Virus record (IMG/VR): IMGVR_UViG_3300032516_000016
Location: 1-64,000 of that record
DNA: 64,000 nucleotides
Source: a virus
Direction: 5' to 3' (one strand)
In this document: positions 4,728 through 53,707 of the stretch, piece after piece
How the letters are laid out: every line of letters starts with the position of its first letter
Position numbering within the stretch: position 1 is the first letter of the stretch
Position numbers and translations under genes: made by a program
Notes under the pieces: generated by a model
The model's input: only the letters and a program-made list of their open reading frames with translations
Database searches by the model: none
Told to the model about the DNA's origin: nothing

Positions 4728-4972
4728 TTTTTCAACTCCTTGTCAGTCCTTTTCCATACAATTCTTGTCATTCCATTGGTGGTTAGCTTCTTCTCTGCCG
4801 GTGTCAATACTCTCATCGTTACGTAACCATGTTTTACCAGTTTCTTCAGATGCTTCTCTCCGGTGCCAGACGCAACTTTGGCTATCTTGAATATTTGGGT
4901 TGCTGACTGTTCCTTGTCGGATCGGCATGCATCAAGTACGCGCTTCACACCTGAGCCTGGTAGGACTATCAT
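4724..4972 (-). CDS. Small winged-helix protein
   Basis: The 82-residue basic protein has a pattern typical of a winged helix-turn-helix: an AT(Q)IFKIAKV helix, GTGEKHLKKLVKHGYV recognition helix and a basic wing. It overlaps the epimerase start by 4 nt. It may be a local transcription regulator, but DNA targets are unknown. Similar small wHTH proteins occur at 9357 and 54048. Confidence 0.65.
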   Translation of the reverse strand: MIVLPGSGVKRVLDACRSDKEQSATQIFKIAKVASGTGEKHLKKLVKHGYVTMRVLTPAEKKLTTNGMTRIVWKRTDKELKK

Positions 4973-51504: not shown

Positions 51505-51651
51505 ATGGAACTACCTACTTTAGAATGTAAGCGTTGTGGTCATAAATGGCATCCTCGTCGCGATCAGTTGCCTGCTGTTTGTCCTAATCTTAAGTGCAAG
51601 TCTTCGTATTGGAATAGAGAGCGTCGTGTTCCTCGTAAGGTTGTGGTGTGA
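51505..51651 (+). CDS. Zinc-ribbon microprotein (48 aa)
   Basis: From ATG 51505 the protein has CKRC near residue 7 and CPNLKC near residue 24, with a basic C-terminus. The layout matches the 38-residue gene at 38375. A leaderless start is supported by the TATA box; an in-frame ATG four codons upstream is closer to the box and less likely. Confidence 0.72.
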   Translation: MELPTLECKRCGHKWHPRRDQLPAVCPNLKCKSSYWNRERRVPRKVVV

Positions 51652-51653
51652 AT

Positions 51654-52127
51654 ATGGTATGTGTTGGTTTTCATCATAGTGAAGAGTCTAAAGCAAAAAT
51701 ATCTGCTTCCAAGCGTGGTGAAAATTGTACTGCTTCTACTAGGGCTAAGTTGTCTGTTGCTGCTCGTGGTCGATTATGTTCTGATGAAACTCGTGCTAAG
51801 ATATCAGCGTCTGAAAGTGGTGAAAACCATTATAATTATGGTAAGCATAGGTCAGATGATACTAAAGCTAAGTTGTCTGTTGCTAATAAGGGTAAACATA
51901 TATCTGATGAACATAAGGCCAAGATAGTAGCCGCGCTTGTTGGAAGACCGTGTTCTGATGAGACCAAAGCTAAAATGGCGTCTACTAAAGTAGGTGATAA
52001 AAATCCTAATTATGGTAAACGTTTATCGGATGAAACTTGTCATAAGATGTCTGTTGCTCGTACAGGTTATAAAAATCCACAGTGGCGTGGTGGTATTAGT
52101 TTTGAACCTTATTGTCCTAAATTTAAC
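51654..52127 (+). pseudogene. NUMOD-type homing endonuclease gene truncated by a transposon
   Basis: The frame encodes six or so NUMOD3-like repeats (such as SEESKAKISASKRGEN, SDETRAKISASESGENHYNYGKH, SDETKAKMASTKVGDKNPNYGK), modules that bind DNA in homing endonucleases. It reaches WRGGISFEPYCPKFN, normally followed by an HNH nuclease domain. The frame then turns into unrelated sequence with the transposon end at 52128 and reaches a stop at 52269-52271. The nuclease domain is missing, and it does not reappear after the transposon, so that part is lost. Confidence 0.8.
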
Positions 52128-52157
52128 TCTTGGGATTGCGAAGGGCAAAGCGGGAAG

Positions 52158-52179
52158 TCCCTATCCTTTAGGGTAGGGA
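52158..52179 (+). repeat. Left-end subterminal hairpin
   Basis: A 9-bp stem with one G-T pair and a TTTA loop; it is nearly the same as the right-end hairpin. Confidence 0.75.
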
Positions 52180-52219
52180 TGAAAGCGAAGCCCTTTGCGC
52201 ATGTTTCTGCTAACGGAAA

Positions 52220-52230
52220 TCTATTTATAC
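52220..52230 (+). promoter_or_regulatory. TATA box inside the transposon left end
   Basis: CTATTTATACT lies about 45 nt before the methyltransferase ATG. A GGTGAT Shine-Dalgarno at 52254-52259 then precedes the ATG at 52265 (and 52271). Confidence 0.6.
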
Positions 52231-52264
52231 TTAGCAATAGGTTATGTATATTTGGTGATAACCT

Positions 52265-53221
52265 ATGCTAATGGTGGGATCATTGTTTGCGGGGATCGGT
52301 GGATTCGAACTTGGATTAGAACGGACCGGGGGATTCGAAACCAAATGGCAATGTGAAATAGATCCCTTCTGTCAGAAGGTATTAGCAAAGCATTGGCCCA
52401 ACGTGACGCGATTCGCGGATATCAAAGAGATGAATGAGGTTCCTTATGTTGATGTCATTTGCGGGGGATTCCCATGCCAGCCCGTCTCCTGTGCGGGTAA
52501 AAGGAAAGGCTCGGAAGACAAAAGATGGCTCTGGCCGGAATTCTACAGAATCGTTTGCGAAGTTAGGCCAGAATGGGTCTTGGTTGAAAACGTGCCCGGA
52601 TTGCTTAGTGCAAAAGACGCTGATGGAATCAAAGGAAGACTTTTTGCCGGAATACTGCGAGACCTGGCCGCAAGCGGGTATGATGCGGAATGGAATATCG
52701 TATCGGCGACCAGTGTTGGAGCACCGCACCTCAGGAGAAGAGTGTTCATCATCGGGCGAAAAATGGACAACGCCCTGCGCGGGGGATACCAGGTCAGTGA
52801 CAGGAGCACTCAGGCCAAGCAGGATAGCGACTGGCAGGAAGACAGATTATTTTGCGCGGCAGGTTCTGATGTGGCCCACACCCAATGTACCGAACGGTGG
52901 CCGGAAGGTTCCAGACGATGCGAAATGGCACGGCAAGACGACCGCTTACAAGGGCGGGAAGAAGATTCAGGTGGGTTTGAACTCAGCAGTCAAGATGTGG
53001 CCAACACCATGCAGCCGAGATTGGAAGAGCGGAGCCGGATCTTCTCCGAGAGAGGGACACGCACCACCATTAACGGATGTGATTGGTGGGCAGTTGAACC
53101 CGGCATGGGTCGAGTGGCTCATGGGGTTCCCGCCAGGGTGGACCGACTTAGAAGCCTCGGAAACGCCATAGTTCCTCAATGCGCGGAGTTCGTTGGTAGA
53201 TGTGTGTTGGGGTGCTATTGA
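52265..53221 (+). CDS. DNA (cytosine-5) methyltransferase, Dcm-like
   Basis: The 318-residue protein has the ordered motifs of C5 methyltransferases: I (SLFAGIGGFELGLERTGG), IV with the catalytic Pro-Cys (GGFPCQPVSCAGKRKG), VI (VLVENVPGL), VIII (RRRVFIIGRK) and X (RLRSLGNAIVPQ). The target-recognition region is short. The enzyme would methylate cytosine at a specific sequence; no matching restriction enzyme is nearby, so it may act as a solo or protective methylase. The stop shares one base with the TnpA ATG (TGATG), linking the two. Another frame overlaps most of it. Confidence 0.88.
   Translation: MLMVGSLFAGIGGFELGLERTGGFETKWQCEIDPFCQKVLAKHWPNVTRFADIKEMNEVPYVDVICGGFPCQPVSCAGKRKGSEDKRWLWPEFYRIVCEVRPEWVLVENVPGLLSAKDADGIKGRLFAGILRDLAASGYDAEWNIVSATSVGAPHLRRRVFIIGRKMDNALRGGYQVSDRSTQAKQDSDWQEDRLFCAAGSDVAHTQCTERWPEGSRRCEMARQDDRLQGREEDSGGFELSSQDVANTMQPRLEERSRIFSERGTRTTINGCDWWAVEPGMGRVAHGVPARVDRLRSLGNAIVPQCAEFVGRCVLGCY
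52434..53171 (+). CDS. Overprinted protein in the +1 frame of the methyltransferase gene
   Basis: The 245-residue frame lies wholly inside the methyltransferase gene, shifted +1. Its segments SFAGDSHASPSPVRVKGKA, FLPEYCETWPQAGMMRNGISY, EKWTTPCA, WPTPCSRDW and LNPAWVEWLMGFPPGWTDLE match a family I know from phage proteins with WP-x-[AS]-GM-x-RNG and LNP-x-[FW]-VEWLMG-[FWY]-P motifs, often listed next to or overlapping Dcm genes. That conservation of an alternative frame supports a real protein. The exact start is uncertain (ATGs at 52434, 52446, 52452). Function unknown. Confidence 0.6.
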   Translation: MRFLMLMSFAGDSHASPSPVRVKGKARKTKDGSGRNSTESFAKLGQNGSWLKTCPDCLVQKTLMESKEDFLPEYCETWPQAGMMRNGISYRRPVLEHRTSGEECSSSGEKWTTPCAGDTRSVTGALRPSRIATGRKTDYFARQVLMWPTPNVPNGGRKVPDDAKWHGKTTAYKGGKKIQVGLNSAVKMWPTPCSRDWKSGAGSSPREGHAPPLTDVIGGQLNPAWVEWLMGFPPGWTDLEASETP

Positions 53222-53658
53222 TGAAATATAAATTGGATCGCGGCGCGCATTCCGTCTATTCACTACATTACCATCTGGTAATTGTGGTGAAGTACAGACG
53301 AAAAGCCCTGTATGACGAGGTTATCAGGGAGCGTCTCAAGAATATTATTTGGGAAATGTCAGACGCTCTTGGTATTGAGATCCTGGCACAAGAACCAGCG
53401 GAGGATCACATGCATATCCTCTTCAAATGTGCTCCCACCACAGACCTAACCAAAGTCGTAAACAGCATCAAGGGTGCGAGTTCGCGCCGGATCAGGCAGG
53501 AATTTCCCCAAACCAAGCAATTCCTTTGGGGCGATTCTTTCTGGTCAGATAGCTACTTCATAGCTTCAACTGGCCAGGTATCTCTCGATGTACTGATGCG
53601 GTATGTAGAGGGCCAGATGGAAAAGGTAGAACAGGAGAAACGAATCCCTACCCTTTAG
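53221..53658 (+). CDS. tnpA: IS200/IS605 transposase TnpA (HUH Y1)
   Basis: The 145-residue protein has the HUH motif (DHMHILF, HxH) and the catalytic tyrosine in VLMRYVEGQ near residue 127, with the usual TnpA length and VVNSIKGASSRRI helix. It cuts and joins single-stranded transposon ends. All key residues are present, so it looks active. The stop lies inside the right-end hairpin, as often seen in IS200. No TnpB gene is in the element. Confidence 0.9.
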   Translation: MKYKLDRGAHSVYSLHYHLVIVVKYRRKALYDEVIRERLKNIIWEMSDALGIEILAQEPAEDHMHILFKCAPTTDLTKVVNSIKGASSRRIRQEFPQTKQFLWGDSFWSDSYFIASTGQVSLDVLMRYVEGQMEKVEQEKRIPTL

Positions 53659-53665
53659 GGTAGGG
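53646..53665 (+). repeat. Right-end subterminal hairpin
   Basis: An 8-bp perfect stem with a TTTA loop overlaps the TnpA stop codon. GAAT immediately precedes it and TCAA follows 5 nt after. Confidence 0.8.
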
Positions 53666-53674
53666 TTGTTCAAG

Positions 53675-53707
53675 TGAGGAGCATTAGCTCCTCATTATGT
53701 CAAGTTT
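53675..53707 (+). terminator. Terminator after the transposon
   Basis: An 8-bp stem (53675-53682 with 53687-53694) with an ATTA loop precedes TTTTTT at about 53705-53710. It may originally have served the truncated homing-endonuclease gene. Confidence 0.55.

Follow-up and report, generated by a model that had tools for sequence, protein, structure and literature searches.

Can a single-strand transposon of the IS200/IS605 family carry a DNA methyltransferase as cargo in an archaeal virus? This question is raised by a locus in IMG/VR record IMGVR_UViG_3300032516_000016 (67,631 bp in total), whose first 64,000 nucleotides, hereafter the window, were analyzed. At this locus, a gene for a C5-cytosine DNA methyltransferase (dcm) is followed directly by a gene for an IS200/IS605 transposase (tnpA). 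IS200/IS605 elements are described as the most minimal transposons and contain tnpA and often tnpB. According to Karvelis et al. (2021, PMC8612924), the family has no genes other than those that serve transposition or regulate it, and our limited search of the open-access literature uncovered no report of a methyltransferase in an IS200/IS605 element. An initial annotation of the window, made from the sequence alone, had interpreted the locus as a methylase-carrying IS200/IS605 element, and this interpretation was largely supported by the homology of the ends, the layout of related elements and the exact position of dcm.

The virus itself is of archaeal type. Its genes in the window code for a Prim-Pol primase, a helicase, radical-SAM proteins, sugar-metabolism enzymes and PEGA-domain proteins. 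No close relatives of the whole virus were found by database comparison; a host within Methanotrichaceae is weakly indicated because the relatives of the element reside in these archaea. For the last 3.6 kb of the record, repeats were searched with the TnpA query only.

Features of the locus are listed in Table 1. Dcm was complete, as had been claimed, with matches to PF00145 (6.7e-49) and, over residues 2–312, to phrog_363 (1.7e-80), and motifs I, IV (PCQ), VI, VIII and X were all in place. TnpA was also intact, matching PF01797 (1.3e-41) and NF033573 (above cut-off), with the HUH motif (HMH) and the catalytic Tyr context (YVEGQ) present; its matches in PDB were ISDra2 (E 2e-24) and IS608 (E 5e-22). 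The dcm stop codon (53219–53221) overlaps the usable ATG of tnpA at 53221 by a single base, and the TATA box that had been placed in the left end was found as a TATA-like box (TATTTATA) within its leader. The GAAT, TCAA (53670–53673) and TTTAAC sequences that had been noted were all confirmed.

Table 1. Features of the dcm-containing element and its left flank, with positions in the window.
Feature	Position	Strand	Description
Left flank, NUMOD3-repeat protein gene	51648–52127	+	PF07460 5.1e-37; cut by the element after ...YCPKFN
Target / left cleavage sequence TTTAAC	52122–52127	+	Kept in flank; precedes LE in most Methanotrichaceae copies
Whole element, LE-dcm-tnpA-RE	52128–53673	+	1546 bp; ends set by homology to identical duplicates (L002/L003) and to Methanotrichaceae copies
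Left end (LE)	52128–52206	+	Guide GAAG-T 52154–52158; inner hairpin 52157–52180; outer stem 52141–52146/52190–52195
Leader	52207–52264	+	TATA-like box near 52222; homologous to tnpA promoter/leader of relatives
dcm, C5-cytosine DNA methyltransferase	52265–53221	+	318 aa, complete; passenger
+1-frame ORF inside dcm	52434–53171	+	245 aa; phrog_1008 family; may encode a second, overprinted protein
tnpA, IS200/IS605 Y1 HUH transposase	53221–53658	+	145 aa; stop codon within RE hairpin
Right end (RE)	53642–53673	+	Guide GAAT (53642–53645), hairpin, cleavage TTCAA

The subterminal hairpins reported to bracket dcm and tnpA (52158–52181 and 53645–53668) form a 24-nt pair that is 92% identical, each member being palindromic. 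Both ends folded better as single-stranded DNA than their shuffled versions (z −2.31 for LE and −2.68 for RE), with equally good folding in 5/200 shuffles at either end. The left end proved larger than the initial annotation had it, as its outer stem encloses the hairpin. In keeping with the IS200/IS605 family, the element has subterminal imperfect palindromes and no terminal inverted repeats, lies 3' of a short specific target (TTTAAC before LE, as in most copies) and shows pairing of guide and cleavage sequences at both ends, as judged from co-variation at LE and RE. TTTAAC was also found before LE at two non-identical sites of one virus. The flanks of the element, TTTAAC and GTGAGG, contain no target duplication. 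Lacking tnpB, it does not have the gene content of the IS605 group (tnpA and tnpB), and with dcm between LE and tnpA it does not have that of the IS200 group (tnpA as the sole gene). A gene unrelated to transposition thus lies, as expected for a passenger, between two ends whose function is deduced from their conservation.

When viral contigs were searched with TnpA, two identical 1743-bp IS605-type copies came to light in another virus of 70.7 kb (IMG/VR 3300029959_000009). These copies (L002/L003) occupy different insertion places, each right after TTAAC and ending in ...GGGTAGTTCAC, and as identical duplicates they fix both ends of the element. That they are identical points to transposition in a virus in the recent past. 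The two copies (L002/L003 3858–5600, IMGVR_UViG_3300029959_000009) are separated by approximately 10 kb in one virus genome. The LE and leader of the window (52122–52264) matched those of Methanotrichaceae IS605 elements with as much as 84% identity across 105 nt (E 1e-24), and a match to the window LE was present in 34 of 50 Methanotrichaceae genomes. Because of this homology, the left hairpin can be assigned to the left end of this element, upstream of dcm. That it might be part of a separate element, a possibility that the initial annotation had raised against itself, was ruled out by the LE and leader homology together with the lack of a second LE between dcm and tnpA in the window. We also considered the left hairpin as an RE remnant of a lost tnpB, its translation being similar to a TnpB C-terminus (SFRVG), and rejected this reading because the same GAAG-TCCC...GGGATGAAAGCG architecture is seen in copies whose LE immediately precedes tnpA. 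In a third virus, a solo LE (L211, about 4785–4859, reversed strand) was 87% identical to the window LE, and no adjoining tnpA or tnpB was found. Six LE-RE units of ~420–470 nt in Methanotrichaceae had no recognised genes and contained an internal hairpin of their own; they are probably non-autonomous derivatives.

Comparison of LE copies pointed to maintenance of the ends. The outer stem was paired in 44–47 of 47 copies, with a GC/AT exchange at 52145/52191, and the inner stem was paired in most of the 47, with T-A at 52162/52175 in the window versus C-G elsewhere. The base after the guide GAAG was T in copies with TTTAAC (28) and A in copies with TTTATC (12), and mismatched combinations (A/A or T/T) were never seen. 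The guide-following base appears to match the target as expected for pairing, and the co-variation may reflect few evolutionary events because the TTTATC copies form a subfamily. This TTTATC/GAAGA subfamily, in which target and guide co-vary, was represented by nine loci, several with a different TnpB. On the right, the guide GAAG occurred with TTCAC in 14 distinct relatives, whereas the window has GAAT with TTCAA, a paired change. Since stems and guide/cleavage pairs co-vary, including compensated changes of the window's own, its ends look maintained and functional.

How dcm came to lie between these ends is suggested by its boundaries. When exactly 52265–53220 (956 bp) was excised, LE-leader-tnpA aligned to the relatives without a gap across the junction (...GATAACCT/ATGAAATATAAATTGG in the window and ...TACAACCT/ATGAAATACAAGCTTG in L060, the slash marking the junction), and the LE and leader were homologous to those of relatives up to the tnpA ATG. 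For the 37 leader nucleotides next to the junction, the summed alignment score had p 0.0005 against dinucleotide shuffles and single pairs ranged from 0.0015 to 0.07, the homology of the leader appearing modest in individual pairs. Because removal of 52265–53220 restores a gap-free alignment, the inserted DNA is the dcm ORF itself, placed precisely at the tnpA start codon and without extra flanking DNA. The initial annotation had also held that relatives with LE directly before tnpA and without a methylase would speak against a passenger. Such a layout is indeed true of every close relative; however, it does not refute the passenger reading because the same LE sits upstream of dcm and removal of dcm restores the layout of the relatives.

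The window TnpA was 81% identical to that of L002 and 77–82% identical across close relatives, which occur in Methanothrix/Methanotrichaceae and in the other virus and are organized as TTTAAC followed by LE-leader-tnpA-tnpB-RE, with tnpB running into RE. The window element has no tnpB, and its tnpA stop codon falls within the RE hairpin, at the place where tnpB of the relatives terminates. The elements compared from Methanothrix/Methanotrichaceae and 3300029959_000009 thus have TTTAAC, LE, leader, TnpA and the RE hairpin in common with the window element, but differ from it in having tnpB, no methyltransferase and an RE of the GAAG/TTCAC type. A phylogenetic tree of TnpA placed the window protein beside a tnpB-bearing Methanotrichaceae/Methanofollis clade (93/88), and tnpB was present in all close relatives with enough sequence and in all outgroups with readable flanks. 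Based on this placement and on tnpB in the outgroups, parsimony assigns both the gain of dcm and the loss of tnpB to the window branch. That the ancestral element had tnpB, now lost, was overlooked by the initial annotation.

The best explanation, and in our view a probable one, is that an autonomous IS200/IS605 element from a lineage that resides in Methanotrichaceae gained a complete dcm of phage type at the tnpA start, lost tnpB and carries dcm as cargo. The IS promoter would drive dcm, and tnpA would be expressed by coupled translation, its start codon overlapping the dcm stop by one base. The hairpins of LE and RE in single-stranded form would be recognised by TnpA, which would cleave after TTTAAC and after TTCAA via the GAAG(T)/GAAT guides, and an LE-dcm-tnpA-RE circle would be excised and inserted. 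Dcm would then methylate the DNA of the virus (or of a plasmid) and so guard it from restriction by the host. Phage-borne orphan methylases protect viral DNA against host restriction, and by analogy with them an anti-restriction cargo is the likeliest role of dcm, more likely than the protection of single-stranded intermediates that had been proposed initially. As no cognate endonuclease gene lies within the element, dcm does not form part of a restriction-modification system there; no restriction endonuclease partner was found inside the element, and the NUMOD3 fragment belongs to the interrupted flank.

An alternative that is possible but rather unlikely is that a viral dcm lodged between LE and tnpA by local recombination after insertion of the element and that the unit has not moved since, in which case dcm would not be a passenger. 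It gains from the fact that only one copy of LE-dcm-tnpA-RE is known. The further copies with a methylase between the same hairpins that the initial annotation had envisaged did not appear in viral contigs, 53 genome loci, 50 Methanotrichaceae genomes or, at E <= 1e-30, 238 genomes of the class. None of the 53 TnpA-bearing genome loci examined contained dcm, and 60 Methanotrichaceae LE loci, many of them cut by contig ends, had no other passengers, only tnpA-tnpB, tnpB alone or no recognised gene. The closest relatives of Dcm, too, are phage-type genes without a link to this tnpA; they reach 39% identity in phages and viral contigs and, in parts, 49–62% in one Methanotrichaceae genome. On the other hand, dcm fits exactly at the tnpA start with no extra DNA and would use the IS promoter, LE and RE are intact and compensated, and the unit would still be mobilisable.

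The flanks also bear on this alternative, since the right one is rearranged. The alignment between the NUMOD3 gene and its intact NUMOD3-HNH counterpart in L003 stops exactly at YCPKFN (residue 210; 52127 in the window), and the HNH part does not resume to the right of the element. A clean insertion into the NUMOD gene is therefore not supported by the right flank. The idea that this gene should be found uninterrupted elsewhere held for the intact protein of L003, which aligns up to the insertion point, but not for an empty site, as the NUMOD3 relatives found were not close. No relatives of the right-flank protein were found. A GAGGAGC...GCTCCTC hairpin is located directly after the right end, within 53674–53700.

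It is less likely still that Dcm serves the element itself in place of TnpB, raising its retention or transposition by methylating the element, the donor site or host DNA. The gain of dcm and the loss of tnpB on the same branch would fit such a role, as would the work of Bao and Jurka (2013, PMC3627910), who found methyltransferases in Mariner elements of eukaryotic viruses, stated that these had previously been unreported in transposons, proposed that methylation could shield transposons from restriction and cited the increase of Tn3 transposition by Dcm. However, TnpB cuts empty donor sites, which an orphan methylase does not do, and the IS200/IS605 family has many copies that lack tnpB and are mobilised in trans. 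Finally, it is very improbable that metagenome assembly fused separate dcm and IS contigs: although the record comes from metagenomes, in which assemblies typically break at IS repeats, the junction coincides with the start codon, with stop and start coupled, and the window tnpA and LE form a divergent lineage (~80% to any known copy) and not a collapsed host repeat.

The dcm gene contained a second long ORF in the +1 frame, which matched phrog_1008 (4.5e-27). When codons of the window dcm and 11 divergent homologues were permuted so as to preserve Dcm, so long an open +1 frame was rarely obtained (p <= 0.005 for 10 of 12 genes; 0.016 and 0.037 for the remaining ones). Cross-species alignment scores of the +1 frame exceeded all 100 codon-shuffled controls in 11/11 comparisons (z 4–12). 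Scores of the +2 frame were much lower in most, not all, comparisons; z reached as high as 9 for the closest relative, whose score is inflated by common ancestry. Seven of seven +1 ORFs tested matched phrog_1008, and five of five frame-0 proteins tested matched phrog_363. The phrog_1008 frame is nested in phrog_363 dcm genes across very divergent phages and archaea and is conserved beyond the constraint of the Dcm frame. Apparently, dcm is a dual-coding gene, and phrog_363 and phrog_1008 share the same DNA in a widespread manner; no prior description of this overlap was found in the open-access literature searched. In a Paenibacillus phage, both frames are annotated as methyltransferases. A nested +1 ORF was also observed at L202 (972–2042 and 1174–1878). 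The phrog_1008 ORF has the motif SGMMRNG...WPTP...LNPxWVEWLMGFPxGWTDL.

Several known systems share parts of this organization. IS608 and ISDra2 have a Y1 HUH TnpA, subterminal hairpins and the same guide/cleavage logic, and the right end of IS608 also has GAAT with TCAA; however, these elements contain only tnpA and tnpB and no dcm. Transporter IS and compound transposons likewise hold a non-transposition gene between IS ends, but those with passengers are described mainly for DDE families, whereas the window element is of the single-strand Y1 type. Orphan Dcm proteins of phages (phrog_363) belong to the same family, match over the full length and have the nested phrog_1008 frame, but their genes are located in phage gene clusters and not between IS ends. 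Mariner-1_OLpv of algal/giant viruses (PMC3627910) is another virus-borne transposon with a C5-methyltransferase; it belongs to an unrelated transposon family of eukaryotic viruses and has a DDE transposase, terminal inverted repeats and an endonuclease.

A more far-reaching idea, which we consider doubtful at present, is that, in a single-strand transposon, the methyltransferase has assumed the accessory role of TnpB and shields new copies and the carrier virus from restriction. If true, IS200/IS605 elements could ferry anti-restriction genes from one archaeal virus to another. In the form of an element, a potential counter-defence gene would spread among these viruses. Since the junction is precise and the relatives provide controls for the states before and after, the capture of cargo by single-strand transposition can be tested directly. 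That an unrelated gene was gained precisely at the tnpA start codon shows that the IS200/IS605 family can acquire cargo.
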